Assembly: GCF_001428505.1 (NCBI RefSeq)
Contig: NZ_LMHU01000001.1
Location: forward strand, 1,629,813-1,693,812
Origin: Terrabacter sp. Root181
GTDB taxonomy: Bacteria; Actinomycetota; Actinomycetes; Actinomycetales; Dermatophilaceae
Direction: 5' to 3'
Length of the DNA stretch: 64,000 bases
Program-made: the position numbers and the translations under genes
The notes under the pieces: model-generated
What the model was told of the DNA's origin: nothing
Seen by the model: the letters and a program-made list of their open reading frames with translations, nothing else
Databases searched by the model: none
In this document: in pieces, positions 645-62,648 of the stretch
How positions within the stretch are numbered: the first letter of the stretch is position 1
How the letters are laid out: every line of letters starts with the position of its first letter

Positions 645-2923
645 GAGGGGTCTCCGTTCGTCGTCGGGACGGCGTCGTCGCCCGAGCCGGTCCCGGCGGG
701 GAGGTCCGGGGCGGTGGGCTCGTCGACGGGGACGAGCCAGACGGTCGACAGGCGCGGGACCGTCAGGTCGGCGGCATACGGCTGCTGGTGCCAGGCCTCC
801 TCGCGTGCCTCGACGACGATGCCGGTGCTGCTCGGGGCGTCCGGGTGGTAGCCCGCGGTGTCGAGGACGACCGTCCACCTCCCGCCGCGCGGCAGGCCGA
901 TCCGGTAGGACTGCTGCGTCTCGCCGCTGAAGTTCATGACGCACGCGACCACGGGTGCGTCGGTTGCCCGGTCGCCGGTGCCGAAGCGCAGCCACGAGAA
1001 CGTGTTGTGGGCCGCGTCGTCGGCCTCGAGCCACTCGAAGCCCGAGCGGTCGGCGTCGAGCTCCCACAGCGCACGGTTGCCCCGGTACAGGCCGTTGAGG
1101 TCCTTGACGAGGTTGTGGACGCGGTAGTGGAGCGGTTGCTCGAGCAGCCACCAGTCGAGGCTGCGGCCCTCGGACCACTCGGACTCCTGCCCGAACTCGC
1201 AGCCCATGAAGAGCAGCTGCTTGCCGGGGTGGCACCACAGGTAGGCGAGGAAGGCCCGCAGCGTCGCGACCTGCTCCTCGCGGGGACCCCGCGACTTGCG
1301 CAGCAGCGAGCCCTTGCCGTGGACGACCTCGTCGTGGCTGATCGGCAGCACGAAGTTCTCGTCGAACGCGTACATGAGCGAGAAGGTCAGCTTGCCGTGG
1401 TGGTAGCTGCGGTAGATGGGCTCCTCGCCGAGGTACTTCAGCGAGTCGTTCATCCAGCCCATGTTCCACTTGAAGCCGAAGCCGAGGCCGCCCTCGTTGG
1501 TCGGCTTCGTGACGCCCGGCCACGTCGTCGACTCCTCGGCGATCGTGACGATGCCGCCGACCCGCTTGTACGCGGTGCCGTTGGTCTCCTTGAGCAGCTC
1601 GACGGCCTCGAGGTTCTCGCGCCCCCCGTCCTTGTTGGGCACCCACGCCCCGGCGTCGCGGGCGTAGTCGAGGTAGAGCATCGAGGCCACGCCGTCGACG
1701 CGCAGTCCGTCGAGGTGGAACTCCTCGAGCCAGTAGATGGCGTTGGCGACGAGGAAGTTGCGCACCTCGGGCCGGCCGTAGTCGAAGATGTTGGAGCCCC
1801 ACTCGGGGTGCCAGCCCTTGCGGGGGTCCGGGTGCTCGTAGAGCGGCAGGCCGTCAAAACGCGCGAGGGCCCACTCGTCGGTGGCGAAGTGCCCGGGCAC
1901 CCAGTCGAGCAGCACCCCGATGCCGGCCCGGTGCAGCTCGTCGACGAGGAAGCGGAAGTCGTCGGGTCGCCCCCAGCGTGAGCTCGGCGCGTAGTAGCCC
2001 GTGACGTGGTAGCCCCACGACGGGACGTACGGGTGCTCCATGACGGGGAGGAGCTCGACGTGGGTGAACCCCAGGTCGCGCACGTAGTTGACGAGGTGCT
2101 CGGCGAGCCCGCGGTAGCCGAGCTCCTGGCGCCACGATCCGAGGTGGACCTCGTAGATGCTCATCGGTCCCTGGTGGGCGTTGCTCGTGCGGCGGCGCTC
2201 CATCCAGTCGTCGTCGCGCCAGTCGTAGTGGGTCTCGGTGACGATGGCCGCCTGCTTGGGCGCGACCTCCGTCATCCGCGCCATCGGGTCGCTCTTGAGC
2301 CGGACGAGCTCGTCGGGGCCGCGCACGGCGAACTGGTAGTTCATCCCCTCCTGGGCGCCGGGCAGGAAGAGCTCCCAGATGCCGCTCTCGCCGAGCGCCC
2401 GCATGGGGTGCGAGCGGCGGTCCCAGTCGTTGAAGTCGCCGATGACGTGGACGGCCTTGGCGCGTGGCGCCCACACGGCGAAGGAGACACCCCAGACGTC
2501 ACCGAGAGGGCCCGGGTACTGGCGCACGTGCGCCCCGAGGACGGTCCACAGCTGCTCGTGGCGTCCCTCGTTGATGAGGTGGCGGTCGATCTCGCCGAGC
2601 GTCGGGGCGAACCGGTAGGGGTCGTCCTGCTCGTGCTCGACGCCGTCGCCGTACTCGACGAGGAGGCGGTAGTCGTGCGTCGTGCCGAAGTCGGGCGAGG
2701 TCATCGACCAGATGCCGTCGCGGACGTGCTGCAGGTCGACCCGCTCGCCCGAGTCGAGCCGGGCGCCGACGCGCGTCGCGAACGGACGGTAGGCCGTGAT
2801 CGTCAGCCCGCCCGGGCCGACGTGGTGGCCGAGCAGGTCGTGCGGCTGGCCGTTGCGGCCCTGGAGGAACGCCGTGATGGCGGCATCGTCGAGGGAGGGA
2901 CCGTGGGCGGTCTCGGTGGTCAT
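641..2923 (-). CDS. glgB: 1,4-alpha-glucan branching enzyme
   Basis: Introduces alpha-1,6 branches into the alpha-glucan made by GlgE. The protein has 760 residues from the ATG at 2923, normal for the family: an N-terminal domain and a CBM48-like beta domain (about residues 140-210), then a GH13 barrel. The nucleophile Asp410 lies in LRVDGVASMLY, the acid/base Glu463 in TIAEEST, and ISHDEVVHG supplies the third acidic residue. The ATG overlaps the stop of mak (ATGA), with GAGGAA just upstream inside mak as ribosome site. A longer reading frame runs 19 codons further upstream but lies inside mak, so the coupled start is preferred. Overlaps pgm by four bases downstream. Confidence 0.96.
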   Translation of the reverse strand: MTTETAHGPSLDDAAITAFLQGRNGQPHDLLGHHVGPGGLTITAYRPFATRVGARLDSGERVDLQHVRDGIWSMTSPDFGTTHDYRLLVEYGDGVEHEQDDPYRFAPTLGEIDRHLINEGRHEQLWTVLGAHVRQYPGPLGDVWGVSFAVWAPRAKAVHVIGDFNDWDRRSHPMRALGESGIWELFLPGAQEGMNYQFAVRGPDELVRLKSDPMARMTEVAPKQAAIVTETHYDWRDDDWMERRRTSNAHQGPMSIYEVHLGSWRQELGYRGLAEHLVNYVRDLGFTHVELLPVMEHPYVPSWGYHVTGYYAPSSRWGRPDDFRFLVDELHRAGIGVLLDWVPGHFATDEWALARFDGLPLYEHPDPRKGWHPEWGSNIFDYGRPEVRNFLVANAIYWLEEFHLDGLRVDGVASMLYLDYARDAGAWVPNKDGGRENLEAVELLKETNGTAYKRVGGIVTIAEESTTWPGVTKPTNEGGLGFGFKWNMGWMNDSLKYLGEEPIYRSYHHGKLTFSLMYAFDENFVLPISHDEVVHGKGSLLRKSRGPREEQVATLRAFLAYLWCHPGKQLLFMGCEFGQESEWSEGRSLDWWLLEQPLHYRVHNLVKDLNGLYRGNRALWELDADRSGFEWLEADDAAHNTFSWLRFGTGDRATDAPVVACVMNFSGETQQSYRIGLPRGGRWTVVLDTAGYHPDAPSSTGIVVEAREEAWHQQPYAADLTVPRLSTVWLVPVDEPTAPDLPAGTGSGDDAVPTTNGDPS

Positions 2924-4347
2924 GGCGTGCCTTCCTCGGTGGTGAGTCGCTCGACGGCGCCGAGCGGGATCGGCAGCCACGAGGGCCGGTTGCGGGCCTC
3001 GTAGACCACCTCGTAGAGCGCCTTGTCGAGCTCGAGCGCGCGCGTCAGGGCCTGGGCGTCGGCGTCGGGCGCACCTGCGACGGAGGCGTACCCGTCGAGG
3101 AAGGCGGTGCGGCAGGCTGCGGCCCAGGCCGTCGCGTCGACGGGCGACTCGGCCAGCGCGACGGAGCCGGCGGCGTAGTCGAACGAGCGCAGCATGCCGG
3201 CGACGTCGCGCGCCGTGAGGTCAGGGCGGACGCGTTCGGCGAGCGGGCGCAGCGGCTCACCCTCGAAGTCGAGGGCCACCCACCCGCGCTCGGCCACGTC
3301 GAGCACCTGGCCGAGGTGGTAGTCGCCGTGGATCCGCTGCAGGGGCGGCCAGTGGACGTCGCGCACGGACGCGACGACAAACTCGACGGCGGCCGAGCGG
3401 GACGCGAGGTCGGGCACGAGGGCCACGGCGGCGGCATACCGCTGGTGCATCGACGTCACGACCGCCTCGCGGGCCTCGGGAGTCACCTCGTGGGTGCCGA
3501 GCGAGTGCGCGAGAGCCGTGTGGATCTGCGCGGTCACGACGCCGAGGTCGCGGGCCCGGGCCGTGAAGTCCGTGCCCGAGGCGGCCGCGACGAGCGCCAC
3601 CCGCCAGGCGTCCTCGACGCCCGGGATGAACTCCTGCGCGAACGCGAGGTGGCCGCGCATCTCCGGGCCACCGGTCGGCGCGTCCCAGGCGCCCGCGAGG
3701 TGGCCGATGGCCATCGGGACGCGGTCGGAGCCCTCCTCGGTCAGGGCGGACTGCACGATGACGTCGGGGTTGTCGCCGTCCTGGAGGGTGCGGAAGACCT
3801 TGACGATGACCGGCTCGGCCGGGCCGCCGCCGGGGGCGGCCATGCGGCAGATGATCGAGGTGTTGGACTGCTCGCCGCTCAGCACGGTCGACGAGGACAC
3901 GGAGCCCTCGGCATGGCCCGTCGAGGAGCCGATGGCGAGGGCGTTGCTGCCCACCGACGCCTGCGCCTCGTCGGAGACGCCGGACCCGAGGATCGTCGCC
4001 ATGAGCTGGGAGACGTAGACGGGGTCGTGCGGTCCGTCGTAGACCCAGCGCGTGCCGAGGACGCTGTGCTCCATCGTGCCCAGCAGGGCGCGCTCGGCGC
4101 CGTCGAGCGGGGCGGCGCGGTAGGTGAGCGGCACCTGGTACACGACAGCGGGGGCGACGGCCTCGTCGGCGAGCAGGAGGGTCTCGCACCCGACCTCGCC
4201 CTCCGGGTCCTCGAAGCGGAAGCCGCCGACGCGGCGCAGCTGCGGCACGTGGCCCTTGCCGTGGTACCACCGCTGGCGCGGCATCCACTCGGTGACCATC
4301 TCGGTCTTGGTCGGCACGATCGACGCGCCCTTGTGCACGATGGCCAT
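2920..4347 (-). CDS. mak: maltokinase
   Basis: Phosphorylates maltose with ATP to maltose-1-phosphate, the donor used by GlgE. The 475-residue protein (actinobacterial Mak/Pep2 size) has an N-lobe with IVKVFR (Lys183) and kinase-like catalytic motifs HGDYH (340-344) and LDFEGEP (359-365), as in aminoglycoside-phosphotransferase-fold enzymes. The ATG at 4347 shares one base with the treS stop (TGATG). The open frame continues far upstream through treS in another frame, but that part is an Arg/Pro/Ala-rich shadow and is not coding. In many actinomycetes treS and mak are fused or adjacent, and TreS and Mak proteins form a complex, so the overlap fits a shared job. Confidence 0.95.
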   Translation of the reverse strand: MAIVHKGASIVPTKTEMVTEWMPRQRWYHGKGHVPQLRRVGGFRFEDPEGEVGCETLLLADEAVAPAVVYQVPLTYRAAPLDGAERALLGTMEHSVLGTRWVYDGPHDPVYVSQLMATILGSGVSDEAQASVGSNALAIGSSTGHAEGSVSSSTVLSGEQSNTSIICRMAAPGGGPAEPVIVKVFRTLQDGDNPDVIVQSALTEEGSDRVPMAIGHLAGAWDAPTGGPEMRGHLAFAQEFIPGVEDAWRVALVAAASGTDFTARARDLGVVTAQIHTALAHSLGTHEVTPEAREAVVTSMHQRYAAAVALVPDLASRSAAVEFVVASVRDVHWPPLQRIHGDYHLGQVLDVAERGWVALDFEGEPLRPLAERVRPDLTARDVAGMLRSFDYAAGSVALAESPVDATAWAAACRTAFLDGYASVAGAPDADAQALTRALELDKALYEVVYEARNRPSWLPIPLGAVERLTTEEGTP

Positions 4348-6056: not shown

Positions 6057-8261
6057 TCAGTGGCTCCTCACGTGGATGATGTGGACGGGCTCGGAGTCGG
6101 GACCGAGCCGCACGAAGTTGTCCTGGCGCCACTCCCACGTCTGGTTCGTGATGTGGTCGTGCGCGTCGAACGTCGACCACGTGGCCATACCCAGTGCCTC
6201 CATGTCGAGGTGCACCCACGTCTCACGGGTGGCGTGCGGGTCGAGGTTGGCGATGACGAGGACGGTGTCGCGCTCGCCGGTGGCCCGGTCGACCACGCGG
6301 GTCTTGCTGAAGACCATGACGTTCTCGTCGTCGGCCGCGTGGAAGCGCAGGTTGCGCAGCCAGTGCAGCGCGGGGTGCCAGCCGCGGATGTCGTTGAGCC
6401 GCTTGAGGTACCAGGCGAGCGAGCGGCTCTCGAGGGGGCCGCCCGGTTCGTAGAGGTACCACTGGCGGTCCTTGTACTCGTACTTCTCGTTGTCGATCTG
6501 CTCCTCGGCCCCCGGGCGTGCGACGTGCTCCATCAGCTCGTAGCCGGCGTAGATGCCGTAGGTCGGCGACATCGTCGCGGCGACCGCGGCGCGGAGCTTC
6601 CACGCGGTGGGCCCGCCGTACTGCATGTAAGGGGTGAGGATGTCGTGCGTCGTCGGCCAGAACGCCGGTCGCATGTAGGCCGACCCGGTGGCCTCGCCGG
6701 CGAGCTCGGTGCCGTACTCCTCGAGCTCCCACTTCGCGTTGCGCCAGGCGTAGTAGGTGTAGCTCTGCTGGAAGCCGGCCTTGGCGAGGTGGTGCATCAT
6801 CGCCGGCTTCGTGAACGCCTCGGACAGCCAGATCGTGTCGGGGTGCTCCTGGGCGACGTCGGCGATCAGCCACTGCCAGAAGGCGACCGGCTTGGTGTGA
6901 GGGTTGTCGACGCGGAAGATGCGCACGCCGTGGTCGAGCCAGACCTGGATGACCCGGCGCACCTCGGCGTAGGACCCCGCGGGGTCGTTGTCGAAGTTGA
7001 GCGGGTAGATGTCCTGGTACTTCTTCGGCGGGTTCTCGGCGTAGGCGATGGTGCCGTCGGCCCGGGTCGTGAAGAGGTCGGGGTGCGTCTGGACCCACGG
7101 GTGGTCAGGAGAGGCCTGGAGCGCGATGTCGAGCGCCACCTCCATGCCGACGCGGCGCGCCTCGGCGACGAAGTAGTCGAAGTCGTCGAACGTCCCAAGG
7201 TCGGGGTGGAGGGCGTCGTGCCCCCCGTCGGGCGAGCCGATGGCATAAGGGGATCCGGGATCGCCGGGCTGGGCGGTGAGGGTGTTGTTGCGACCCTTGC
7301 GCGCCGTCGTGCCGATCGGGTGGATCGGTGTCAGGTAGACGACGTCGAAGCCCATGTCGGCGATCGCGGGCAGCCGCTTCGCTGCGGACCGGAAGGTCCC
7401 GGAGACCCAGTCGCCGGTCTTCTCGTCGCGGTGCGCCCCCTCGGAGCGGGGGAAGATCTCGTACCAGGCGCCGTAGAGCGCGCGCTCGCGCTCGACGAGC
7501 AGGGTGTATGCCGGTGAGGTCGACACGAACTCGCGCAGCGGCACGAGCGCGGCGAGTCCCGTGATCTCGGGTGAGGTCGCCGCTCCGAAGCGGTGGGCGG
7601 CGGGGGCCCGGTTGTCGCTGAGGGCGACGACGCCCTTGTCGATCTCGGAGGCGTCGACACCGAGGCCGCGGACGGCGTCGGCGAAGCGCTCGAGCACGCG
7701 GACGCCCTCGGCGCACATGAGGTCCTCGTCGACGCCGGCGGCGATCTTGATGCCGGCGTCGTGGACCCACGTCGCGTAGGGGTCGGACCAGCCCTCGACG
7801 CGGTAGGTCCACCAGCCCTCGCGGTCGGCGACGACGGTGGCGGCCCACTCGGACAGACCGGGGTTGACGCTGTGCATCGCGAAGTAGTGGTCGGTGCCGT
7901 CGGGATCGGTGAGCACGGCCGTCGCGTTGACGGCGTCGTGGCCCTCGCGGAAGACCTTGGCCCGGACGGTGAACTCCTCGCCGACGACCGACTTCGCCGG
8001 GCGCGTGCCCCCGTCGACGAGCGGGCGGACGTCGCTGACGGGGATGCGTCCCATCGGGAGGGCGCCACCCGGCATGCCCTCGACGGTGGGCGGGGCGCTC
8101 ACGGGGTGGTCGGGGGCGAGGTGAACCGCTCCTGCCTCGGTGTCGTCGACGAACGCGGTGTCTGCGGTCGGGGTGGCATCGTCGCGTCGTGGTGCTTGGG
8201 GGGCGGCGCTGCGCACGCGGTTCGGCTTGCTGGAACGGGGCTTCTTCGCTGAGCCAGTCAC
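6057..8261 (-). CDS. glgE: alpha-1,4-glucan:maltose-1-phosphate maltosyltransferase
   Basis: Extends linear alpha-1,4-glucan with maltosyl units from maltose-1-phosphate; first gene of the operon. A GH13 enzyme: nucleophile Asp452 in IFRVDNPHTKP and acid Glu481 in WLSEAFTKP (numbered from the GTG at 8261). The conserved domain only begins near MGRIPVSDVRP, so the chosen start gives about 65 extra residues rich in Lys, Arg, Pro and Ala. Internal ATGs at 8078 or 8057 would give a 673- or 666-residue protein, closer to the usual length, and neither start has a strong ribosome site. The open frame runs on to 8360, but that part lies in the divergent promoter region shared with glgP. Product certain, start uncertain. 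Confidence 0.93.
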   Translation of the reverse strand: MTGSAKKPRSSKPNRVRSAAPQAPRRDDATPTADTAFVDDTEAGAVHLAPDHPVSAPPTVEGMPGGALPMGRIPVSDVRPLVDGGTRPAKSVVGEEFTVRAKVFREGHDAVNATAVLTDPDGTDHYFAMHSVNPGLSEWAATVVADREGWWTYRVEGWSDPYATWVHDAGIKIAAGVDEDLMCAEGVRVLERFADAVRGLGVDASEIDKGVVALSDNRAPAAHRFGAATSPEITGLAALVPLREFVSTSPAYTLLVERERALYGAWYEIFPRSEGAHRDEKTGDWVSGTFRSAAKRLPAIADMGFDVVYLTPIHPIGTTARKGRNNTLTAQPGDPGSPYAIGSPDGGHDALHPDLGTFDDFDYFVAEARRVGMEVALDIALQASPDHPWVQTHPDLFTTRADGTIAYAENPPKKYQDIYPLNFDNDPAGSYAEVRRVIQVWLDHGVRIFRVDNPHTKPVAFWQWLIADVAQEHPDTIWLSEAFTKPAMMHHLAKAGFQQSYTYYAWRNAKWELEEYGTELAGEATGSAYMRPAFWPTTHDILTPYMQYGGPTAWKLRAAVAATMSPTYGIYAGYELMEHVARPGAEEQIDNEKYEYKDRQWYLYEPGGPLESRSLAWYLKRLNDIRGWHPALHWLRNLRFHAADDENVMVFSKTRVVDRATGERDTVLVIANLDPHATRETWVHLDMEALGMATWSTFDAHDHITNQTWEWRQDNFVRLGPDSEPVHIIHVRSH

Positions 8262-11099: not shown

Positions 11100-13265
11100 T
11101 CAGGCGAGGTCTGCGACCGAGGGGCGTCCGTCGGTCGAGCTCCAGACGCGCATCGACGCGGCCAGCATCGTGATGGTGGTGCCCGCGGGGACGGGATCGC
11201 CCGGGGGAGCGGGTCGGTCGTCGGCGCTGTCCCAGAGCAGGTCGTATGCCGTCGCGCCGGGGGCCTTGGGCAGCGTGACCTCGGCCGGGTGGGCCGCCCC
11301 GTTGACGACGACGAGCACCGACTGCTGAGCGAGCCGCGTGCCCTCGTAGAGGGCCTGGAGCACGTGCGCGGCCGGGCCGTCCCAGCGCTCTTCCATGGGG
11401 AGCCCGTCGGCGGCGAACCAGGCGAGGTCCGTCGAACCGTCGGCGTGGACCTGCCTGCCGGAGAAGAACGCCCGCTGCCGGAGCACCGGGTGCTCGTGAC
11501 GCAGCCGGACGAGGTGCCGGGTGGTCGCGAGGAGGTCCTCCTGCCAGGGCTCGAGGTCCCACGACATCCAGCTGATCTCGTTGTCCTGCGAGTAGGGGTT
11601 GTTGTTGCCGCGCTGGCTGCGCCCCACCTCGTCGCCGGCGTTGACCATCGGCACCCCCGTCGACAGCAGGAGCGTGCCGAGCAGGTTGCGGATCGTGCGG
11701 CGTCGCGCCGCCGTGATGTCGGGGTCGTCGGTGCGACCCTCGACGCCGTGGTTCCACGACCGGTTGTCGTTGGACCCGTCCGCACCGCTGTGGCCGTTGG
11801 CGCCGTTGTGCTTCGTGTCGTAGGACGTGAGGTCGGCGAGCGTGAAGCCGTCGTGGGCGGTGACGAAGTTGACCGAGGCGATGGTGCCGCGGTCATGGTG
11901 GTCGAAGAGGTCCTGGGACCCGGCCAGGCGCGTCGCCAGCTCGCGGACGCCGTGGCCGACACCGCCCGACGCGGAGGCGGCCAGGTCGCGCAGCCAGAAG
12001 GTGCGGGTCGCGTCGCGGTAGCGGTCGTTCCACTCCGAGAAGGGCGGCGGGAACTGCCCGGTGCGCCAGCCGTGGAGACCGAGGTCCCACGGCTCGGCCA
12101 CGAGCTTGGCGCGGGAGAGCACGGGGTCGGTGCGCAGCGCCACGAGGAAGGGGTGGTCGCGGTCGTAGCCGTCGTCCCTGCCGCGACCGAGGGCGACGGC
12201 GAGGTCGAAACGGAAGCCGTCGACGTGGAACTCCTGCACCCAGTAGCGCAGCGAGTCGAGCACCATCCGCGAGACGACGGGGTGGGTGAGGTCGAGGGTG
12301 TTGCCGCATCCGGTGACGTCGATGTCGCGGCCGCGGCCGTCGACGCGGTAGTACGCCCGCTGGTCCAGCCCGCGCCAGGAGAGCGTCATCCCCTCGCGGG
12401 CGTTCTCGGCCGTGTGGTTGTAGACGACGTCGAGGAGCACCTCGATCCCGGCGGCGTGGAGGTCCCTGACCATCGTCTTGAACTCGTCGAGCGCGCCCTG
12501 CGGGTCCGCTGTCGACGCGTAGGCGGCGTGCGGCGAGAAGAAGCCGAGCGTGTTGTAGCCCCAGTGGTTCGTCAGCCCGCGCAGCACGAGGTCGGGCTCG
12601 TGCGTGAAGGTGTGGACCGGGAGGAGCTCGACCGCGGTGACACCCAGCCCGAGCAGGTGGTCGACGAAGGCGGGGTGGGCCAGGCCGGCATACGTTCCCC
12701 GGAGGGCCTCGGGGACGCCCGGGTGCAGCTTCGTGGCGTTCTTGACGTGGACCTCGTAGATGAGCGACTCGGTGAGCGAGCGTCGCGGGAAATCGTCAGT
12801 GCCCCAGTCGAACTCGTCCTCGACGATGACGCAGCGCGGCAGGTGCGGCGCCGAGTCGCGGTCGTCGCGGACCCACAGGTCACCGCGCAGGTCCGGGCCC
12901 ACGTGGTGGGCGTAGACGGCCGGGTCGAGGTGCACCCCGCCCTCGATGGCCCGGGCGTAGGGGTCGAGGAGCAGCTTGGCCGGGTTGTGCAGGAGGGATC
13001 GGTCGGGGTCCCAGTCGCCGTCGACGCGGAAGGCGTAGCGCTGCCCGACCCCGACCCCGGGCACCGTGTCGAACCACGTCCCGTGCGCCCGGTGGCGCAG
13101 CGGCACCCGACGCTCCGTCTCGCTGCCGTCGGCGGCGGTGTCGAAGAGGCAGACCTCGACACCCCGGGCGTGGCCGGCGTAGACGGCGAACTGCGCCCCG
13201 TCGGCGGTGAGCCTGACCCCGAGCTCGGGAGGCAGGTCGGGCGTCGCGGGAGGGGGCGGGCACAT
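11100..13265 (-). CDS. glgX: glycogen debranching enzyme (isoamylase type)
   Basis: Hydrolyses alpha-1,6 branches left after phosphorylase action. 721 residues: N-terminal CBM48/isoamylase domain, then a GH13 barrel with LLDVVYNHTAE, nucleophile Asp354 in GFRFDLAVALG, Glu391 in LVAEPWDLG and VTAHDGFT, plus a C-terminal beta domain. The ATG at 13265 (MCPPPPATPD) is preferred because a -10 box lies seven bases before it; the frame is open further upstream, through the divergent promoter and into the neighbouring gene. Faces glgP tail to tail and is divergent from the YbjN-like gene. Confidence 0.94.
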   Translation of the reverse strand: MCPPPPATPDLPPELGVRLTADGAQFAVYAGHARGVEVCLFDTAADGSETERRVPLRHRAHGTWFDTVPGVGVGQRYAFRVDGDWDPDRSLLHNPAKLLLDPYARAIEGGVHLDPAVYAHHVGPDLRGDLWVRDDRDSAPHLPRCVIVEDEFDWGTDDFPRRSLTESLIYEVHVKNATKLHPGVPEALRGTYAGLAHPAFVDHLLGLGVTAVELLPVHTFTHEPDLVLRGLTNHWGYNTLGFFSPHAAYASTADPQGALDEFKTMVRDLHAAGIEVLLDVVYNHTAENAREGMTLSWRGLDQRAYYRVDGRGRDIDVTGCGNTLDLTHPVVSRMVLDSLRYWVQEFHVDGFRFDLAVALGRGRDDGYDRDHPFLVALRTDPVLSRAKLVAEPWDLGLHGWRTGQFPPPFSEWNDRYRDATRTFWLRDLAASASGGVGHGVRELATRLAGSQDLFDHHDRGTIASVNFVTAHDGFTLADLTSYDTKHNGANGHSGADGSNDNRSWNHGVEGRTDDPDITAARRRTIRNLLGTLLLSTGVPMVNAGDEVGRSQRGNNNPYSQDNEISWMSWDLEPWQEDLLATTRHLVRLRHEHPVLRQRAFFSGRQVHADGSTDLAWFAADGLPMEERWDGPAAHVLQALYEGTRLAQQSVLVVVNGAAHPAEVTLPKAPGATAYDLLWDSADDRPAPPGDPVPAGTTITMLAASMRVWSSTDGRPSVADLA

Positions 13266-13856: not shown

Positions 13857-14635
13857 TGGGCGAGTTCGTCCGGCTCGAGGTCGAGGACGGCATCGGCACG
13901 ATCCGCCTCGACCGGCCGAAGATGAACGCCCTCAACGTCCAGGTCCAGGAGGAGATCCGCGAGGCCGCCGCCGAGGCGACCGCGCGCACCGACGTCAAGG
14001 CCGTCATCGTCTACGGCGGTGAGCGGGTCTTCGCGGCCGGGGCGGACATCAAGGAGATGCAGACGATGTCGTACACCGACATGGTCGAGCGCTCCGGTCC
14101 GCTCATGAGCTCGATCAGCGCCGTGGCACGCATCCCCAAGCCGGTCATCGCCGCGATCACCGGGTACGCGCTCGGTGGTGGCTGCGAGCTCGCCCTCGCG
14201 TGCGACTTCCGCGTGGTCGCGGACGACGCGAAGCTCGGCCAGCCCGAGATCCTCCTCGGCATCATCCCCGGCGCGGGCGGCACGCAGCGCCTCTCGCGGC
14301 TCGTCGGCGCCTCGCGCGCCAAGGAGATCATCTTCAGCGGCCGCTTCGTCGACGCCGAGGAGGCGCTCGCCATCGGCCTCGCCGACAAGGTCGTGCCCGC
14401 CGTCGACGTCTACACCGCGTCCCGCGCGTGGGCGTCCACCTTCGTCGGAGCGGCGTCGTATGCCGTCCGCGCTGCCAAGGAGGCCATCGACCGGGGTCTC
14501 GAGGTCGACCTCGAGACGGGCCTGGAGATCGAGCGGCTGCTCTTCGCGTCGCTCTTCGCGACGAAGGACCGCGAGATCGGGATGTCCTCGTTCGTCGAGC
14601 ACGGTCCCGGCAAGGCGCAGTTCGAGGGTCGATGA
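13856..14635 (+). CDS. enoyl-CoA hydratase/isomerase family protein
   Basis: Hydrates trans-2-enoyl-CoA in beta-oxidation or a related catabolic route. 259 residues, standard crotonase length. The oxyanion-hole segments GADIKEM and GGGCELALACDF are present, and IIPGAGGTQRL carries the usual catalytic region. The ATG overlaps the YbjN-like stop (TGATG). The etfBA genes 1.5 kb downstream also serve fatty-acyl-CoA oxidation, which makes a role in beta-oxidation likely, although the exact substrate cannot be told from the sequence. Confidence 0.9.
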   Translation: MGEFVRLEVEDGIGTIRLDRPKMNALNVQVQEEIREAAAEATARTDVKAVIVYGGERVFAAGADIKEMQTMSYTDMVERSGPLMSSISAVARIPKPVIAAITGYALGGGCELALACDFRVVADDAKLGQPEILLGIIPGAGGTQRLSRLVGASRAKEIIFSGRFVDAEEALAIGLADKVVPAVDVYTASRAWASTFVGAASYAVRAAKEAIDRGLEVDLETGLEIERLLFASLFATKDREIGMSSFVEHGPGKAQFEGR

Positions 14636-15897: not shown

Positions 15898-16046
15898 GCG
15901 CCCCATCCTCTGCACGGGATGTGCCCGTCGACAAACCGTTTTGGCGACGGCGTCCGGCGGCGACCCGTGGCTGCGGTCGCCCCTGCGAGATGGCGGACGG
16001 CATACGTCGACGGTCTGGTGGTGAGCGTCACGCCACGGGCGTGCGG

Positions 16047-18043: not shown

Positions 18044-18517
18044 TCAGGCGGCCTCGGAGTCGAGGTCGAGGCGCGCCGACAGCCGGGTCCAGCTCTCGAG
18101 CCGCTGCCGGTTGAAGGCGTAGGCCGAACGCCCCGTCCCGAGGGTCCACCACGCCCCGCGCAGCGCCTCCGACGGCAGGCGCACGGGGCGCCCCTGGCCC
18201 CGACGCCACTCGAGGCGTCCGCTCGACGACACGCGCCGCACGTCGCGCCGGTCGATCGTCGTCGTCATGAGGGTGTTGTGCACGCGCAGGCTCTTGGTCC
18301 CGAGGTCGATGCGGGCCGACCACGCCCGCCAGCCGAGGGCGAGCGCGAGGGCCAGGCACACGGCATACGTGACCGTCGCGGGCAGCGACGGGACGAGCCG
18401 CACGAGCAGCCGGGCCACGAAGTAGCCGATGACGGGGCAGGCCAGGGCAGCGACGGCCCGGTGCACAGCGGGCGCGCGCAGCCGGCTCCCACCGGTGCCC
18501 TCGTGCCTGCCACCCAT
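18044..18517 (-). CDS. small membrane protein with PH-like (bPH_6 type) region
   Basis: 157 residues of no assigned function. Two hydrophobic helices (about residues 25-40 and 45-65) are followed by ARIDLGTKSLRVHNTL and TTTIDRRDVRRV, which resembles the start of the bacterial PH-like domain found in small actinobacterial membrane proteins. The PH-like call is a weak pattern match. The ATG at 18517 is chosen because TATGAT stands seven bases before it; an ATG four codons upstream overlaps that box. Confidence 0.6.
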   Translation of the reverse strand: MGGRHEGTGGSRLRAPAVHRAVAALACPVIGYFVARLLVRLVPSLPATVTYAVCLALALALGWRAWSARIDLGTKSLRVHNTLMTTTIDRRDVRRVSSSGRLEWRRGQGRPVRLPSEALRGAWWTLGTGRSAYAFNRQRLESWTRLSARLDLDSEAA

Positions 18518-28587: not shown

Positions 28588-30905
<2,318 letters not shown>

Positions 30906-44669: not shown

Positions 44670-44709
44670 ACCCCATTGTGTCCCACCGGGCGCCCGGGAC
44701 CGCGGTGGC

Positions 44710-45443: not shown

Positions 45444-46400
45444 ATGGCTGCTCATCCCCTCGTCGTGTCCGTCCCCGACTCCGCGTTCGTCGAGGCCCTC
45501 GCTGACCTCGAGGGCGTCGACGCGGTCGTCTGGGACATGGAGCGCCCCCACCCGCGCGGCGCCGAGATCCGCTTCGCGGTCATGCCGTACATGACGAAGC
45601 TCGGCCTCGCCGACGTCACCCGGGGCCTCGACGCGCTCGAGGTCGTCCAGCTGCAGAGCGCCGGCTACGAGCAGTTCGTCGGCGAGCTCCCGGACGGCGT
45701 CACGCTCTGCAATGCGGCCGGTGTTCACGACGCGTCGACGGCCGAGCTCGCCCTGACGCTGACCCTGGCTTCGATCCGCGACATCCCGGAGCTCGTCGGG
45801 TCGCAGGGACGCAGGCACTGGGAGCCGCTGCGCCTGCGTTCGGCGCTCGCCGACCGCCGTGTGCTCGTCGTGGGCTACGGCCGGATCGGACGGGCGATCG
45901 CCCGCCGGTTCGCGCCCTTCGAGGTCACGCTCACGGCGGTCGCCTCGCGGGCGCGTGCGGGCGACGAGCTGGTGCCGCACGTGCACGGCATCGACGAGCT
46001 GCCTGACCTGCTGCCCGACCACGACGTCGTCGTCGTCATCGTGCCGCTCACCGACTCGACGCGCGGACTGGTCGACGCGTCGCTGCTGGGCCGTATGCCG
46101 GACGGTGCCCTTCTCGTCAACGTGGCCCGGGGCCCCGTCGTGGACACCGACGCCCTCGTGGCCGAGTGCACGGCCGGGCGGCTGCGCGCCGCGCTCGACG
46201 TGACCGACCCGGAGCCGCTCCCGGAGGACCACCCGCTGTGGACCGCGCCCGGCGTCCTCATCACGCCGCACGTCGGCGGTGCGACGGACGCGATGCGCCC
46301 CCGCGCCATCGCACTCGTGCGCCGACAGGTCGAGGCGCTGCTCGCCGGTGAGCTCGTCGACAACGCCGTCGCCGGACCCTTGTCTGCCCCACAGACATAG
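45444..46400 (+). CDS. D-isomer-specific 2-hydroxyacid dehydrogenase
   Basis: NAD(P)-dependent reduction of a 2-oxoacid; 318 residues, normal length. Rossmann motif VLVVGYGRIGRAIARRF, catalytic Arg in VNVARGPVVDTDALV, Glu in DVTDPEPLPEDHPLW and His in ITPHVGGAT. Substrate unknown (glyoxylate, phosphoglycerate and hydroxypyruvate enzymes share these motifs). The TAG stop overlaps a GTG of the next frame (TAGTG). Confidence 0.9.
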   Translation: MAAHPLVVSVPDSAFVEALADLEGVDAVVWDMERPHPRGAEIRFAVMPYMTKLGLADVTRGLDALEVVQLQSAGYEQFVGELPDGVTLCNAAGVHDASTAELALTLTLASIRDIPELVGSQGRRHWEPLRLRSALADRRVLVVGYGRIGRAIARRFAPFEVTLTAVASRARAGDELVPHVHGIDELPDLLPDHDVVVVIVPLTDSTRGLVDASLLGRMPDGALLVNVARGPVVDTDALVAECTAGRLRAALDVTDPEPLPEDHPLWTAPGVLITPHVGGATDAMRPRAIALVRRQVEALLAGELVDNAVAGPLSAPQT

Positions 46401-47497: not shown

Positions 47498-47514
47498 CAC
47501 CCAAGGGATTCCGT

Positions 47515-47811
47515 ATGCCGTCCGCTCCCGTCCGCGTCATCCTCCCGGGCATGCTCCGCGACCTCGTGGGTGGTGTGGCGGAGATCGAGGTCGAGTCCCC
47601 GGGCGAGACCCAGACGGTGGCCGAGCTGCTCGACCGGGCCTTCTCGGGTCATCGCATCCTCGACGGGAAGGTGCGCGACGAGCGCGGCCAGATCCGCCGG
47701 CACGTCAAGGTCTTCGTCAACGGTGAGGACGCCACGCGCGGCGAGGGTGTCGGCGCGCCCGTCCCGGCCGGCGCCCGCGTGCACATCATCAACGCCGTCT
47801 CCGGGGGCTGA
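47515..47811 (+). CDS. MoaD/ThiS-family ubiquitin-like sulfur-carrier protein
   Basis: 98 residues with the beta-grasp pattern VRVILPGMLRDLVGG, TVAELLDRAF and VFVNGEDATRGEGVGAPVP, and a C-terminal Gly-Gly (VSGG), which in this family is adenylated and turned into a thiocarboxylate or used for conjugation. AAGGGA precedes the ATG at 47515. No E1-like activating enzyme or MoaE is nearby; the partner gene is the propeller protein just upstream. Role open. Confidence 0.85.
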   Translation: MPSAPVRVILPGMLRDLVGGVAEIEVESPGETQTVAELLDRAFSGHRILDGKVRDERGQIRRHVKVFVNGEDATRGEGVGAPVPAGARVHIINAVSGG

Positions 47812-47840: not shown

Positions 47841-48470
47841 TCAGGCGTCCACGCCGAGGAGGATCGGGAGGACGGTGCGCTCCAGCTCGCCGACGGTGAG
47901 TGACCGAGGCTCGACGAGGCGCTGGGTCATCGACCCCTGGGCCAGCGAGATGGCCGCGCGCACGAAGAGCTCGGTGGAGATGGGCAGCGTCAGACCCTGC
48001 CGCGACACCGCCTCGTCGACGACGGCCACGAGCTCGTCACGGACGCGGCGCTGCTGCGCGGCCCAGGCGCGTCGGGCCTCGGCGTCGCGGATGGCGTGGA
48101 GGGTGAACTCCGTCGTGAGCACGAGCCAGCGCTCCTTGCTCCGACTGTCGTCGGCGAGCGCCGCGAAGACGTCGCGCAGCACCTCGTCGGCGCTCGCGTG
48201 CTCGCGCTTGCTCGCGCGCCGGATGCGCTCGACGAGCGCCTCGGAGTGGCGCTGTGACAGCTCGACGACGAGGTCGTCCTTCGAGCTGAAGTTCGAGTAG
48301 AACGCGCCGCGCGTGAAGCCGGCGCGCTCGCAGATGTCCTCGACGCTGGCGCCGTGGAAGCCGCGCTCCGCGAAGACCTCGCTCGCTGCGGCGAGCACCC
48401 GGTCGCGGGTGGCCCGTCGACGGGCCGTGATGGGGGGCGCGCTCGGCATCGGGGCTGTGGTGGACGGCAT
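47841..48470 (-). CDS. TetR-family transcriptional regulator of the YhgE-type exporter pair
   Basis: 209 residues. Helix-turn-helix ATRDRVLAAASEVFAERGFH, GASVEDICERAGFTRGAFY and SNFSSKDDLVVEL, the AcrR-type arrangement; C-terminal helices MTQRLVEP... for ligand and dimer contacts. ATG at 48470 with TATCCT six bases upstream. Divergent from the pseudo-ATPase/YhgE genes with inverted ATACG sites between, so it most likely represses both directions. Confidence 0.9.
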   Translation of the reverse strand: MPSTTAPMPSAPPITARRRATRDRVLAAASEVFAERGFHGASVEDICERAGFTRGAFYSNFSSKDDLVVELSQRHSEALVERIRRASKREHASADEVLRDVFAALADDSRSKERWLVLTTEFTLHAIRDAEARRAWAAQQRRVRDELVAVVDEAVSRQGLTLPISTELFVRAAISLAQGSMTQRLVEPRSLTVGELERTVLPILLGVDA

Positions 48471-48476
48471 ACGCCA

Positions 48477-49187: not shown

Positions 49188-51247
49188 ACCCCATCCGACT
49201 GGCCCTCGCCGAGCTGCGCCGACTCACGTCGTCGCGCCTCGCCCGGCTCGGCGTCGTCGCGCTCGCCCTCATCCCCACGCTCTACGGCGGGCTCTACCTC
49301 TACGCCAACCACGACCCGTATGCCGCCCTGCCGCAGGTCCCCGCGGCGGTGGCCAGCGACGACACGGGCACGACCCTGTCGACCGGCGAGAAGCTCGATG
49401 TCGGTGACGAGGTCGCCGACCACCTCGTCGGGTCGAAGTCGTTCGACTGGCACAAGGTCTCGCGGGCCGAGGCCCTCCAGGGGGTGCACGACGGGCGCTA
49501 CTCGTTCGCGGTTCTGCTGCCCTCGACGTTCTCCGCAGACCTCGCGGCGACCGCGGACTTCACGCCCCGGCGGGCCAACGTCGTGCTCGAGACGAACGAC
49601 GCCAACAACTACATGACGACGATCATGGGCAACACCGTCATCAAGCAGGTGAGCTCGTCGGTCGCCTCGCAGGTCAGCGAGAAGGCGGCCGACCGCCTCC
49701 TCATCGGCTTCAACCAGATCCACGACAACCTCGGCAAGGCCGTGGACGGGTCCGAGAAGCTTCGCGCCGGGCTCGTCAAGGCCGACGACGGCGCGGCGCA
49801 GGCGGCGACCGGAGCGCGGTCGCTCGCCTCGGGGCTGCACGACCTCGCGTCGGGCGCGACGGCCCTGCACACGGGGGCGGCGAAGGCGCTGTCGGGCGCC
49901 GAGCGGCTGCACTCCGGCGCGACCAGCCTGGCCTCGGGTCTCGGTACCCTCGAGTCCCGCACGCGGTCGCTCCCCGCCCAGTCCGATCGCCTCGCCGACG
50001 GCGCCGCGCAGGTCGCGGCCGGCAACCAGAAGGTCGCGGCGGTCGGGCAACAGGTCGCCGGCATCTCGACGACGCTCCAGGGCGACCTCACGACCCAGCG
50101 CGCACGTCTGCTCGACGAGCTGCAGGGCGCCGGTCTCGACGAGGCCCAGCTGGCCCTCGTCGAGAGCCGTCTCGACACCATCGACGGGCTCGTCGACACC
50201 GCCGACGGGCGCATCCAGTCGGCCTCCGGCGACCTCGACCGACTCTCCGCCGGTGCCGACCAGGTCGCCGCCGGCGCCAGGCAGCTCGCCGACGCGACGC
50301 CCGCCCTGACCGACGGCATCTCGAAGGCCGCCACCGGCTCTCGCGCGCTCCGCGACGGCACGGCGACCCTCGAGAGCGGCCTCGGCACGCTCGTCGCGGG
50401 CTCGGCCCAGCTCCAGACCGGCGCCGCCCGGGCGGCCTCGGGCGGTGACTCGCTCGCGGCCGGGGTCGCCGACCTCAGGACGGGTCTCGGCCGGCTCGCG
50501 GCCGGCGCGACGGACCTGCACACGCAGCTCGCCAAGGGCCGTGACGCGGTGCCCGACCCCACCGACGCCCAGCGCCGGGCCGTCGCCGCCACCGTCGGCG
50601 ACCCGGTCGACGTGTCGTCGGCGAGCATGGCCGCGGCGGGCACCTACGGCGCCGGGCTGGCCCCGCTCTTCCTCAGCCTCGCGCTGTGGATCGGTGCCTA
50701 CACGCTGTTCCTGCTCGTGCGGCCCTTCTCGACCCGTGCGCTCGCGACGAGCCAGCGGTCGCTGCGCACCGCCCTCGGTGGCTGGCTCGCGCCCGTCGCC
50801 GTCGGCATCGTGCAGACCGTCGCCCTCTACCTCGTGGTGTCGATGGCTCTCGACATCCGGGTCGCGCACCCGGTGCTCGCCCTGCTCTTCCTCGGCTTCG
50901 TCTCCATGACCTTCGTCGCGATCCTGCACGCGCTCGCGGCCCGGCTCGGCGCCGTCGGCAAGTTCCTCGGGCTCGTCTTCATGGTCGTCCAGCTCGTCAG
51001 CGCGGGCGGCACCTTCCCGTGGCAGACGCTGCCCGGACCGCTCCAGGCGATCCACCACGTCGTGCCCATGACCTATGCGATCGACGGGCTGCGCCGCCTC
51101 ATGTACGGCGCCGACCTCGGACCCGTCCTCGGCGACCTCGGAGTGCTCGCGGCCTACCTCGTGGGCGCGCTGGCGGTCTCGACGATCGCGGCCCGGCGGT
51201 CGCGGGTGTGGACCCCCTCGCGGATCAGGCCCGAGCTGAGCCTCTGA
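49184..51247 (+). CDS. YhgE/Pip-family membrane protein (phage-infection-protein/ABC-2 type)
   Basis: 687 residues. One N-terminal helix (VVALALIPTLYGGLYLYAN), an external region of about 470 residues carrying many GA/SG heptad repeats such as LASGLHDLASGATALHTGAA, then five to six C-terminal helices with the ABC-2 transporter look (LVFMVVQLVSAGGTFPWQTL, PMTYAIDGLR). Members are thought to act in export (ESX-linked or lipid/toxin) or as phage receptors in Gram-positives. Coupled to the pseudo-ATPase gene (ATGA) and placed under the divergent TetR. Confidence 0.9.
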   Translation: MNPIRLALAELRRLTSSRLARLGVVALALIPTLYGGLYLYANHDPYAALPQVPAAVASDDTGTTLSTGEKLDVGDEVADHLVGSKSFDWHKVSRAEALQGVHDGRYSFAVLLPSTFSADLAATADFTPRRANVVLETNDANNYMTTIMGNTVIKQVSSSVASQVSEKAADRLLIGFNQIHDNLGKAVDGSEKLRAGLVKADDGAAQAATGARSLASGLHDLASGATALHTGAAKALSGAERLHSGATSLASGLGTLESRTRSLPAQSDRLADGAAQVAAGNQKVAAVGQQVAGISTTLQGDLTTQRARLLDELQGAGLDEAQLALVESRLDTIDGLVDTADGRIQSASGDLDRLSAGADQVAAGARQLADATPALTDGISKAATGSRALRDGTATLESGLGTLVAGSAQLQTGAARAASGGDSLAAGVADLRTGLGRLAAGATDLHTQLAKGRDAVPDPTDAQRRAVAATVGDPVDVSSASMAAAGTYGAGLAPLFLSLALWIGAYTLFLLVRPFSTRALATSQRSLRTALGGWLAPVAVGIVQTVALYLVVSMALDIRVAHPVLALLFLGFVSMTFVAILHALAARLGAVGKFLGLVFMVVQLVSAGGTFPWQTLPGPLQAIHHVVPMTYAIDGLRRLMYGADLGPVLGDLGVLAAYLVGALAVSTIAARRSRVWTPSRIRPELSL

Positions 51248-53687: not shown

Positions 53688-53716
53688 AGGCGGAGGTCGT
53701 ATGCCGTGTGGCCGGG

Positions 53717-54674: not shown

Positions 54675-55493
54675 ATGCCCACCGACCTGTTGCCTGCGCT
54701 CACCACGGCATACCCCGTCAGCGACGACGCCGTCGCGGCGTACCGCACGAACGGCCACGTGCGCCTGACACAGGTGGCGACGCAGGACGAGGCGGCTGCG
54801 TACCGCGGGCCCGTGGCTGCGACGGTCGAGCGCCTCAGCACCGAGACGCGGCCCCTCGCCGAGCGTGACAGCTACGGCATGGCGTTCCTGCAGGTGATGA
54901 ACCTCTGGCGGCACGACGAGGCGGTGGCCCGCTTCGTCATGGCGACGCGGTTCGCCGACGTCGCCGCACGCCTGCTCGGCGTGCCGCGGGTGCGGCTCTA
55001 CCACGACCAGGCGCTCTTCAAGGAGCCGGGCGGGGGCTACACGCCGTGGCACCAGGACGCCATGTACTGGCCGCTCGACGGCTCCCGGTGCCTGACGATG
55101 TGGATGCCGCTCGTCGACATCACGCCCGCCCACGGCGGGCTGGCCTTCGCCAGCGGCAGCCACGTCGACGGGCCGCTCAGCGACATCGGCATCTCGGACG
55201 CGTCCGAGGAGCACTTCGACGGACTCGTCTCCGAGCGCGGACTCGTCGTCGACGAACCGGTGGCGATGCGCGCCGGTGACGCGTCCTTCCACTCCGGCTG
55301 GACCGTGCACAAGGCTCTCGGCAACTCCTCGAGCCGGATGCGCGAGGTCATGACGGTCATCTGGTTCGCCGACGGCCTGTCGGTCCTCGAACCGGCCAAC
55401 CCGGCCCAGGCGAACGACCTCGCCTCGTGGCTGCCCGGTCTCGCACCGGGCGACGTCGCGGCGTCGCCGGCCAACCCCGTGTTGACCCGCTGA
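54675..55493 (+). CDS. phytanoyl-CoA dioxygenase (PhyH) family protein
   Basis: Fe(II)/2-oxoglutarate oxygenase, 272 residues. Iron ligands His126 and Asp128 in TPWHQDAMYWPL, distal His212 in WTVHKALGNSS with Arg221 for 2-oxoglutarate. The MPLVDITPAHGGLAFASGSH stretch (in part: HGGLAFASGSH) is typical. GGAGGA lies before the ATG at 54675. Substrate unknown; these enzymes hydroxylate many small molecules and alkyl chains. Its partner regulator is divergent AraC, and both are bracketed by copies of one palindrome. Confidence 0.88.
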   Translation: MPTDLLPALTTAYPVSDDAVAAYRTNGHVRLTQVATQDEAAAYRGPVAATVERLSTETRPLAERDSYGMAFLQVMNLWRHDEAVARFVMATRFADVAARLLGVPRVRLYHDQALFKEPGGGYTPWHQDAMYWPLDGSRCLTMWMPLVDITPAHGGLAFASGSHVDGPLSDIGISDASEEHFDGLVSERGLVVDEPVAMRAGDASFHSGWTVHKALGNSSSRMREVMTVIWFADGLSVLEPANPAQANDLASWLPGLAPGDVAASPANPVLTR

Positions 55494-56049: not shown

Positions 56050-57042
56050 TCAAGCCTCGTCGGCCACCGGTCCCGGCGTCACGTCGGCCGCCCAGTGGCG
56101 CCACACCGACGTGACCTGCATGCCGACCTTCTCATAGAGACCGAGTGCGCCGGTGCGGGAGTCGGTCGACAGCTCGGAGCGCTCACCACCGTGGGTCCGG
56201 GCGACCTCGAAGGCATCGACGAGCAGGGCCCGGGCCAGCCCCTTGCCGCGTTCGTCTCGCCGCACCGCGAGCTTGTCGACGTAGGCGCACCCGTTCGAGA
56301 CGACGACGAAGGCCATGCCGACGACGTCGTCGGAGGCGTCGACCATGAGCCGCAGCTGCCACGGCTCGTAGCCGGGTCGACGCGAGACGTTGGCGGTCCA
56401 CTCCTCGAAGGTCGCGCGCTCGCGATCGGACCACTCGAGGAAGGCGTCCTCGTTGACGGTCCACGTGGCGCGGAGGTCGTCCTCGTCGCGCGGCTCGCGG
56501 ACGGCATACCCGTCCGGAACGGGCTGCGGCTCGATCGCCTGCCCGGCCGGCAGCTCGAGGACCCACGAGGTCCACAGCGTGCGGTAGCCGAGCGACGAGA
56601 GCAGGTGCTCGCCGGGGGAGTCGCCGGGGACCGGCTGGCCGACGATCGTGCCGCCGTCGCGGGCACCGACGGTGCGGGTCCAGCGCGACAGCGCGGTCCC
56701 GATGCCCATCCCGCGGTGGGCCGGGTCGACCGCCGCGTCCGCCCAGCGCCCCTTGTAGACCTCGGCGTACGCGACGAGGCGCTCCCCGTCGACGACGCCG
56801 ATCGACTGCGTGGCGAGGTCGAACGCCGGTCGCTGCCAGTCGCCGGCGATGTCGGCCTCCTCGATGAGGACCTCACCCACGTCGTGCTGCTCGCACGCCG
56901 CCATGAGCCGCGTGACCGCGGGCGCGTCCTCCCGCGTCAACGGGCGGCTCCTCAGGGTCGCCGCCGTCCGGGGCAGGTGCAGCTCCACCGGTGCGTGCGG
57001 ACCCGTCCGGGTGGTCGGGTCGCTCGAGGTGTCTGTGCTCAT
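56050..57042 (-). CDS. GNAT-family acetyltransferase (two GNAT domains)
   Basis: 330 residues with two GNAT folds: the first has DAAVDPAHRGMGIGTALSRW, the second VDKLAVRRDERGKGLARALL and STDSRTGALGLYEKVGMQVT, both with the acetyl-CoA loop (RGMGIG, RGKGLA). ATG at 57042 overlaps the upstream gene's stop (ATGA). Similar to mycothiol acetyltransferase-like tandem enzymes in layout, but substrate not identifiable. Confidence 0.85.
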   Translation of the reverse strand: MSTDTSSDPTTRTGPHAPVELHLPRTAATLRSRPLTREDAPAVTRLMAACEQHDVGEVLIEEADIAGDWQRPAFDLATQSIGVVDGERLVAYAEVYKGRWADAAVDPAHRGMGIGTALSRWTRTVGARDGGTIVGQPVPGDSPGEHLLSSLGYRTLWTSWVLELPAGQAIEPQPVPDGYAVREPRDEDDLRATWTVNEDAFLEWSDRERATFEEWTANVSRRPGYEPWQLRLMVDASDDVVGMAFVVVSNGCAYVDKLAVRRDERGKGLARALLVDAFEVARTHGGERSELSTDSRTGALGLYEKVGMQVTSVWRHWAADVTPGPVADEA

Positions 57043-61559: not shown

Positions 61560-61580
61560 TCGCGTCGACGCCGACGGCCC

Positions 61581-62345
61581 TCAGCGGCCGCTCAGGCGGT
61601 CCGGCTGCGTGGACAGCCAGGCGGCGAAGGTGGGGCCGCCGGTCTGGGCGTCACCCGGGAAGGGAACGTTGCGACGCTCGGCGAACGCCCGGAGCACGCC
61701 GCCGATGGCGGGGAGGCGCACCACTCTCGGGGCGGAGGCGCCCCGGTGCGCGCGCAGCAGGGTCGCGAGCTCACCCACGGTCAGCACGTCGGGGCCGGCG
61801 ACGTCCGTCGCCCTGGCGTATGCCGTCGGGCGCGCTCCCGATGCGAGGTCGGCGAGGCGTCCGGCGACGAAGTCCGTGTCGACCGGCTGGAAGGCCGTGT
61901 CACCGATCGTCACGGTGATCGGTCCGGTGCTCAGCGTGCGGGCGAAGAAGGCTGCGAGGGAATGGAACTGGGTGGCGCGCAGGACCGTCGCGGGGCCGCC
62001 GGCCGCCTCGATGCCCTGCTCGGCGCGCAGCTTGCGTCGGTAGTAGGCCATCGGGTGGTCGTCGATGCCGACGATCGAGATGTGCACGAGGTGCACCCCT
62101 CGGTCGGCGGCCGCGTCGGCAAGCCGTCGCGTCCCGTAGACCGTGACGGTGTCCCCGCGCGACGTGTCGTCGGCACAGTGCACGACGGCGTCGGCGCCCG
62201 AGAGGGCGGCGTCGAGTCCGTCACCGGTGGTCAGGTCCACCCCGGTCCGCCGGCTCACCGGCACCGCCTGGTGCCCGCGAGCCGTGAGCTCGCGGACGAC
62301 CCGGGACCCGAGGTCGCCGGCGCCCCCCGTCACGATGATGCGCAT
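61581..62345 (-). CDS. NAD(P)-binding (NmrA/atypical SDR-like) protein
   Basis: 254 residues of the atypical SDR class: MRIIVTGGAGDLGSRVVREL nucleotide loop, ADAVVHCADDTS, VHISIVGIDDHPMAYYRRKL (Tyr-x3-Lys-like pair), and C-terminal TDFVAGRLADLASG. Proteins of this kind sense redox state or reduce small substrates. ATG at 62345; the frame continues upstream into the serA promoter region without conserved sequence. Single gene, convergent with ilvC. Confidence 0.83.
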   Translation of the reverse strand: MRIIVTGGAGDLGSRVVRELTARGHQAVPVSRRTGVDLTTGDGLDAALSGADAVVHCADDTSRGDTVTVYGTRRLADAAADRGVHLVHISIVGIDDHPMAYYRRKLRAEQGIEAAGGPATVLRATQFHSLAAFFARTLSTGPITVTIGDTAFQPVDTDFVAGRLADLASGARPTAYARATDVAGPDVLTVGELATLLRAHRGASAPRVVRLPAIGGVLRAFAERRNVPFPGDAQTGGPTFAAWLSTQPDRLSGR

Positions 62346-62648
62346 GACCCCACCCTGACGTGCCGCCCGGGCAGCACGCAACGCTCCGGCGGTCCGGGAT
62401 CCCGTCGGGTCGCCCCGGGCGGCACCGCCAACCCGGCGGGACGCGCGCCGGGACGGTCCGGCATACGGGATCGACGTTCCAGCCACTGATACGGCGACCG
62501 GGCTCGACCTGTTGTTCACATGTTGGTTACATGTCGTGATTCTACGAGTGCGACGGCCTAGACTCGCCGACGGCACATCGCGGTGCCGCCGACGGCCCGC
62601 GCCCCCTGTCGTGCGTGTGGCCCCGCCCCGTCCGGAAGGGATTCCCTT
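62346..62648 (+). promoter_or_regulatory. serA upstream region
   Basis: 303 bases without a gene. It holds GGCATAC at 62460, TCACATGTTG at 62516-62525 followed by a partial second copy (GTTACATGT), a possible promoter with TAGACT at 62559-62564, and GGAAGGGA before the GTG at 62649. The decamer also occurs before the ilv leader, so a regulator common to serine and branched-chain synthesis is possible. Confidence 0.45.

Follow-up and report, generated by a model that had tools for sequence, protein, structure and literature searches.

An over-represented, family-specific genome word with dialects in Terrabacter and its relatives, and its possible role as a DNA uptake sequence

Excess of the word in the window and in the genome

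The octamer CGGCATAC, dispersed over a 64,000-nt stretch of Terrabacter sp. Root181 (GCF_001428505.1, contig NZ_LMHU01000001.1, positions 1,629,813 to 1,693,812; hereafter the window), is a genome word in strong excess that is specific to one family and has dialects. By analogy with known systems, the best-supported explanation, which we hold with moderate confidence, is that it serves as a genome-wide 'self' tag working like a DNA uptake sequence (DUS). An initial annotation of the window had reported the heptamer GGCATAC/GTATGCC as over-represented and dispersed, counting 28 copies where about six were expected by chance. The excess is in fact larger and that expectation was too high, as 29 copies are present between 773 and 62466 while 100 dinucleotide-preserving shuffles give a mean of 2.0 and a maximum of 6. 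Under a first-order Markov model no 7-mer of the window has a higher z-score than GGCATAC (among words with at least 8 occurrences), and the same holds among 8-mers for CGGCATAC, the heptamer with C in front. The octamer accounts for 28 of the 29 heptamers, the exception at 26287 having G in front, and it is not self-complementary, i.e. non-palindromic. An Rfam scan of the window gave no match.

Counts over the whole genome and in relatives, which the initial annotation had proposed as a check together with a Markov comparison, bear out the excess. The genome of 4.94 Mb contains 2,324 heptamers as compared to 418 for the reversed-word control, and 2,231 octamers (452/Mb, with 1,096 on the forward and 1,135 on the reverse strand) as compared to 250. 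The reversed control CATACGGC is itself inflated because it overlaps the word within CGGCATACGGC, and it is found at 51.8/Mb in word-bearing samples and at 4.3/Mb in wordless ones. A 444 kb sample, made up of the window and 19 stretches spaced along the largest contig, holds 188 copies of CGGCATAC where Markov models of order 1, 2 and 3 predict 6.1, 8.0 and 9.8, respectively, and the word is seen in all 20 stretches. In this sample A stands in front of 0.52 and G behind 0.67 of the copies, and the preferred form in the genus is roughly ACGGCATACG. The same sample shows CGATCG to be under-represented (710 observed, 1,439 expected at Markov order 2).

Distribution in the Actinomycetota

Family is used here in the sense of GTDB, NCBI splitting its members among several families; genomes, genera, loci and contigs carry our own labels (G, g, L and C), of which g224 is tied to Janibacter terrae, g225 to J. 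massiliensis, g227 to Janibacter sp. HTCC2649 and g239 to Ornithinimicrobium murale. Among 296 genomes sampled across the Actinomycetota, high counts are restricted to the family of Terrabacter, whose three members in this set carry 2,231, 2,476 and 1,251 copies. Among the other 293 the count peaks at 386 in a genome of 7.5 Mb (control 176), and the highest ratio of word to control, for genomes with at least 100 copies, is 161:30 (G276). In Aeromicrobium ginsengisoli (L025), also outside the family, the word is about three times as frequent as the control (191 and 61 in 4.0 Mb).

Across 186 genomes of the family the counts are bimodal, either reaching up to 4,724 copies (G394, 4.2 Mb) or staying at background. 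All nine genomes of the Terrabacter genus carry 1,423 to 2,358 copies, and 30 of the 31 genomes of g239 carry at least 394, the exception being G408 with 50. At the other end, all 16 genomes of g224 and all 12 of g243 have at most 38, and the genera g201, g206 and g210 are intermediate with 153 to 322. Among named species, Janibacter sp. HTCC2649 has 2,982 copies (control 59), O. murale DSM 22056 has 1,009 (control 127) and J. terrae has 22 (control 13).

Dialects and re-spelling in place

A second spelling, CGGCATCC, was found by k-mer scans in samples of G471, G311 and G328, and genome-wide it amounts to 3,949 copies in G471, 3,816 in G311, 3,838 in G312, 4,480 in G328 and 3,619 in G329. Two genomes of the same genus as G328 (g212), namely G330 and G331, carry both spellings, with 1,217 and 1,189 copies of CGGCATAC and 2,195 and 2,099 copies of CGGCATCC, respectively. 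The 179 family genomes that remain besides the five of the second dialect and these two mixed ones contain 241 to 1,336 copies of CGGCATCC. A tree of GatB has two supported clades with such genomes, one joining G471 to G311 (97/92) and one joining G328 to G330 (95/94). Since genomes with CGGCATCC are thus placed in separate clades of this single-gene, midpoint-rooted tree, the spelling appears to have originated on two or more occasions. An unrelated word, CGAAGGGGG, whose counts come from samples only, was identified by k-mer scans of samples of G346, G387, J. terrae NBRC 107853 and J. hoylei; it was not seen in the sample of J. massiliensis (L013), which adds 0 of the 28 copies in the three named Janibacter loci. 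Scans of other word-poor samples, e.g. G457 and G302, gave no clear word. Flanks also differ by lineage among the word-bearing genomes, with AGCGGCATAC in G335, CGCGGCATAC in G458 and ACGGCATAC in G333.

Orthologous sites change their spelling in place. This was observed in the region around gatB at CGGCATAC sites taken from 18 word-bearing loci, in comparisons that share sites and ancestry. In genomes of the second dialect the aligned sequence is exactly CGGCATCC in 48 of 235 such comparisons and exactly CGGCATAC in 9, as compared to 10 and 0 of 282 in six loci of neither dialect, which include two Janibacter loci with CGAAGGGGG. The mixed genome G330 has CGGCATCC in 14 and CGGCATAC in 12 of 61 comparisons.

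G378 (L138-L141), which unlike its two genus-mates is without CGGCATAC, contains CGCCGTAC 59 times where 11 are expected, possibly a further dialect two bases away. In G400 (L158-L161, g239), CCGCATAC is mildly enriched alongside CGGCATAC (8 observed, 0.9 expected), which may mean that the word is less strictly defined in the Ornithinimicrobium group. The g243 genomes G447 and G452 carry 1,210 and 1,336 copies of CGGCATCC, about twice as many as the Janibacter (g224) genomes; the sister of g243 in the GatB tree is g212, a CGGCATCC genus, so these copies may be what is left of that dialect as it decays. AGCCCGTCCA in G380 (L166-L169; 19 observed, 0.3 expected) is probably a local repeat.

Inverted pairs and conservation of sites

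Copies of CGGCATAC that lie within 40 bp of each other are mostly inverted: 32 inverted pairs were counted where 4.2 are expected, the 32 including the same ancestral pair in several congeners, and only 2 direct pairs. The 444 kb sample alone has 7 inverted pairs (14 of 188 copies), with about 1.3 expected. Of the other words, CGAAGGGGG has 7 inverted pairs (0.6 expected) and 0 direct, and CGGCATCC in its own genomes has 11 inverted (4.5 expected) and 5 direct. Some of the inverted pairs form perfect stems. One pair is present in the window, between gatC (identified by eye, stop at 39335) and gatA.

Conservation was tested in one region against seven of the eight congeners (all but G467). The word is kept in 47 of 63 congener comparisons, which share ancestry, as compared to about 57% for control octamers averaged by weighting. 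Two genomes from outside the genus, G333 and G339, keep 8 of 10 words (control 0.44) and 5 of 10 (control 0.34), respectively. The copies in the window are as follows, each being CGGCATAC unless stated otherwise.

772-779, plus strand
3432-3439, plus strand
7506-7513, minus strand
11244-11251, minus strand
12686-12693, plus strand
14458-14465, minus strand
15998-16005, plus strand
18361-18368, plus strand
20200-20207, plus strand
22666-22673, minus strand
25248-25255, plus strand
26287-26293, plus strand: GGCATAC heptamer only, G in front and no leading C
27754-27761, plus strand
29418-29425, minus strand
31869-31876, plus strand: identical in 5 of 7 aligned congeners
34145-34152, plus strand: identical in 6 of 6 aligned congeners (the seventh unaligned)
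39354-39361, minus strand: left arm of the inverted pair between gatC and gatA; CGGCATCC at the aligned place in G311
39376-39383, plus strand: right arm of the same pair; CGGCATCC at the aligned place in G328 and G330
42181-42188, minus strand: identical in 3 of 7 congeners
44664-44671, plus strand: identical in 7 of 7 congeners and in three other aligned genomes (G333, G339, G335)
46093-46100, minus strand: identical in 4 of 7 congeners
47513-47520, minus strand: identical in 7 of 7 congeners; CGGCATCC in G311
48465-48472, plus strand
49318-49325, minus strand: retained in just 1 of 4 aligned congeners
53699-53706, minus strand
54706-54713, plus strand
56502-56509, plus strand
61818-61825, minus strand
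62459-62466, plus strand

Alternative explanations

A preference for the codon pair Tyr-Ala or its amino acids, or base composition, could in principle generate such an excess as a by-product, and TAT-GCC is indeed the commonest coding frame (56 of 119 coding copies), this codon pair occurring 68 times where 10.4 are expected. However, TAT-GCG is close to expectation (8 and 6.8) while GGC-ATA (10 and 1.3) and GTA-TGC (6 and 0.6) are raised, and the word contains 60 of the 146 TAT codons and 10 of the 22 ATA codons in our heuristic gene calls. Open reading frames (ORFs), called from GC content by codon position and covering 77% of bases, hold 119 of the 188 sampled copies in all six frames and leave 69 outside. 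Because all six codon frames are used, Tyr-Ala pairing, named in the initial annotation as a possible refutation, is no explanation, and the favoured unit is the DNA word, not the peptide. Base composition is rejected likewise by the shuffles, by the Markov expectations and by wordless samples of the family, in which 4 copies of CGGCATAC are present in 700 kb although 11.4 are expected. The probability left to codon or compositional preference is therefore negligible. Transcription terminators or the operator of a regulator would account for the close inverted pairs, some of which are perfect stems, but the majority of copies within ORFs, the small share that is paired and the position of the window's pair inside what is presumably one operon make this very improbable.

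An orphan methyltransferase that recognises the word, or a repair enzyme with a bias, could maintain it inside the cell without any role in uptake, which would make the word a counterpart of the highly iterated palindrome HIP1 of cyanobacteria. Abundance within as well as between genes is in line with such a word, the lack of an excess of mismatched copies (see below) could reflect active intracellular maintenance, and cyanobacterial HIP words go with methyltransferases and have derived spellings (PMC4390886). We nevertheless consider it unlikely, since CGGCATAC is no palindrome, the inverted pairs are left unexplained and two N6-methyltransferase families are patchy. Of 50 picked word-bearing genomes, 16 have PF01555 (15 over the cut-off), 31 have PF02384 and 13 have neither, namely G463, G464, G469, G333, G367, G371, G439, G085, G442, G443, G430, G311 and also G394, which has the largest CGGCATAC count of the family; these are mostly draft genomes, and the search did not extend to PF07669, PF00145 and others. 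A site for a nucleoid or chromosome-organising protein, serving architecture or segregation, appears slightly less probable again. The presence of the word in every sampled stretch of the largest contig would fit, as would its retention above control among congeners in one region. Against it stand the genera of the same family that lack the word, such as g224 and g243, and the near-random spacing, with a coefficient of variation of 0.91 over 168 gaps in 444 kb; the fairly even spacing claimed earlier is thus not borne out. Strand polarity is likewise absent from the sampled replichore. Locus L090 carries dnaA, dnaN, rnpA and parB, recognised by eye from translations, and five parS-like sites, so that oriC can be located at about 108 kb of contig C1. 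The sampled octamers past oriC are 81 forward and 95 reverse, on the assumption that this 1.89 Mb contig does not reach the terminus. This strand-skew check around oriC, which the initial annotation had called for, speaks against a polar motif of the kind of Chi or the FtsK-orienting polar sequences (KOPS).

The word as a putative uptake sequence

The initial annotation had likened the word to HIP1-type genome words and offered three roles for it. The genome word itself stands; methylation and a polar segregation or repair motif are disfavoured by the results above, and an uptake word fits best because CGGCATAC is non-palindromic and without polarity in the sample, has dialects with switching in place, two-dialect genomes and inverted pairs, and occurs against a background of Tad and ComEC genes. 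ComEC, PilM and TadE were each sought in 68 genomes hand-picked from the 186 of the family, and ComEC and TadE were each detected in 67. Terrabacter sp. Root181 itself has an open ComEC gene (846 aa) and, adjoining it, an open ComEA-like gene with SLBB and helix-hairpin-helix domains recognised by eye. Partial matches to ComEC are present in two word-poor genomes, G408 (C11, model positions 1-150, on a contig of 8.5 kb) and G362 (C1, J. massiliensis, model positions 27-268 plus a separate fragment). As for mobile DNA, the phage portal PF04860 was detected in 1 of 56 picked family genomes, which suggests that prophages with this kind of portal are uncommon, a search for plasmids of the family yielded none, and no gene in the largest word-free gap (17 kb, L098) was recognised as mobile by eye.

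From these observations we infer a receptor, its binding to the word, an uptake bias and a drive. A cell-surface receptor of the Tad-pilus/ComEA/ComEC transformation system would bind the word on extracellular DNA, and word-bearing fragments would preferentially be taken up and recombined, whereby the word would accumulate and imperfect copies would be replaced. Drift in the specificity of the receptor would then lead to site-by-site re-spelling of the words of a genome, and thereby to dialects. The receptor might be a Tad minor pilin or ComEA, a guess guided by the minor pilins ComP and ComN. We incline, by little more than an even chance, to the fuller account of an uptake-word system in the Actinomycetota with a Tad rather than a type IVa-pilus receptor, in which one family has two related dialects and transitional genomes with both words, genomes of the Janibacter type have moved to the unrelated CGAAGGGGG, and receptor change and re-spelling could be traced stepwise.

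Several findings weigh against an uptake role. Word-bearing and wordless genomes cannot be told apart by ComEC or TadE, the type IVa pilus marker PilM is present in 1 of the 68, and among the three genes tried in these genomes none tracks the presence of the word or offers a receptor candidate. The reverse mapping of dialects is weaker, as CGGCATCC sites correspond to CGGCATAC in 49 of 510 comparisons; for chance occurrences of CGGCATCC in loci that belong to neither dialect the figure is 10 of 195. As an RNA fold the inverted pair of the window (39354-39383) has no remarkable stability (z -0.14). Eight farther word-bearing genomes keep 8 of 30 words where control octamers predict about 8.3, so word sites are held among near relatives and turned over between genera. 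Singly mismatched copies, over-represented for DUS and for the uptake signal sequence (USS) (PMC1939737), are without excess here (853/841 = 1.01; wordless genomes 524/509 = 1.03). This is the clearest departure from the known DUS/USS kind, and it suggests stringent maintenance or replacement.

Our search of the literature, which covered only part of it, revealed no description of CGGCATAC or of any uptake word in Actinobacteria. If uptake is confirmed, such a tag would exist in a branch of bacteria quite different from Neisseria and Haemophilus. It would represent a further, apparently independent, Gram-positive origin, and would show that such words evolve more than once and do not depend on type IVa pili. 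Genomes with two spellings and sites re-spelled in place make the origin and change of uptake words, by drive or by selection, directly testable.

Comparison with known systems

HIP1 (GCGATCGC) is, like CGGCATAC, an over-represented octamer with derived spellings, and copies that are off by one abound in many of the genomes that have it (PMC4390886), whereas they are not in excess here. It is also palindromic and goes with methyltransferases, in contrast to a word that is not a palindrome and whose genomes can lack both N6 families searched.

Uptake sequences have been described as known only in the Neisseriaceae and Pasteurellaceae (PMC12616744). The USS of the Pasteurellaceae resembles the present word in density (200-800/Mb) and in having two sub-family spellings (PMC12616744). 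It differs in sequence, phylum and pilus type. The USS also has A+T-rich flanking segments, and none were seen around CGGCATAC in the 444 kb sample.

The likeness to the DUS of the Neisseriaceae is broader. That word too is short, non-palindromic and present in thousands of copies; it has dialects, one genome combines two of them at nearly equal counts, some family members are devoid of an obvious DUS (PMC3630211), and close inverted repeats occur (PMC2397512). The differences are that the present word has a core of 8 bp, belongs to Actinomycetota and not to Proteobacteria, is accompanied by TadE and hardly ever by PilM, lacks the excess of singly mismatched copies and is conserved among near relatives only; receptor and uptake are here proposals.

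Micrococcus belongs to the order Micrococcales, and we know of no genome word for Micrococcus luteus. The term 'uptake sequence' occurs 0 times in the paper on its transformation (PMC4322843). Tad genes are required for transformation in this actinobacterium, as described there (PMC4322843), and its Tad/ComEA/ComEC system is of the same machinery class as the one proposed here to read the word.

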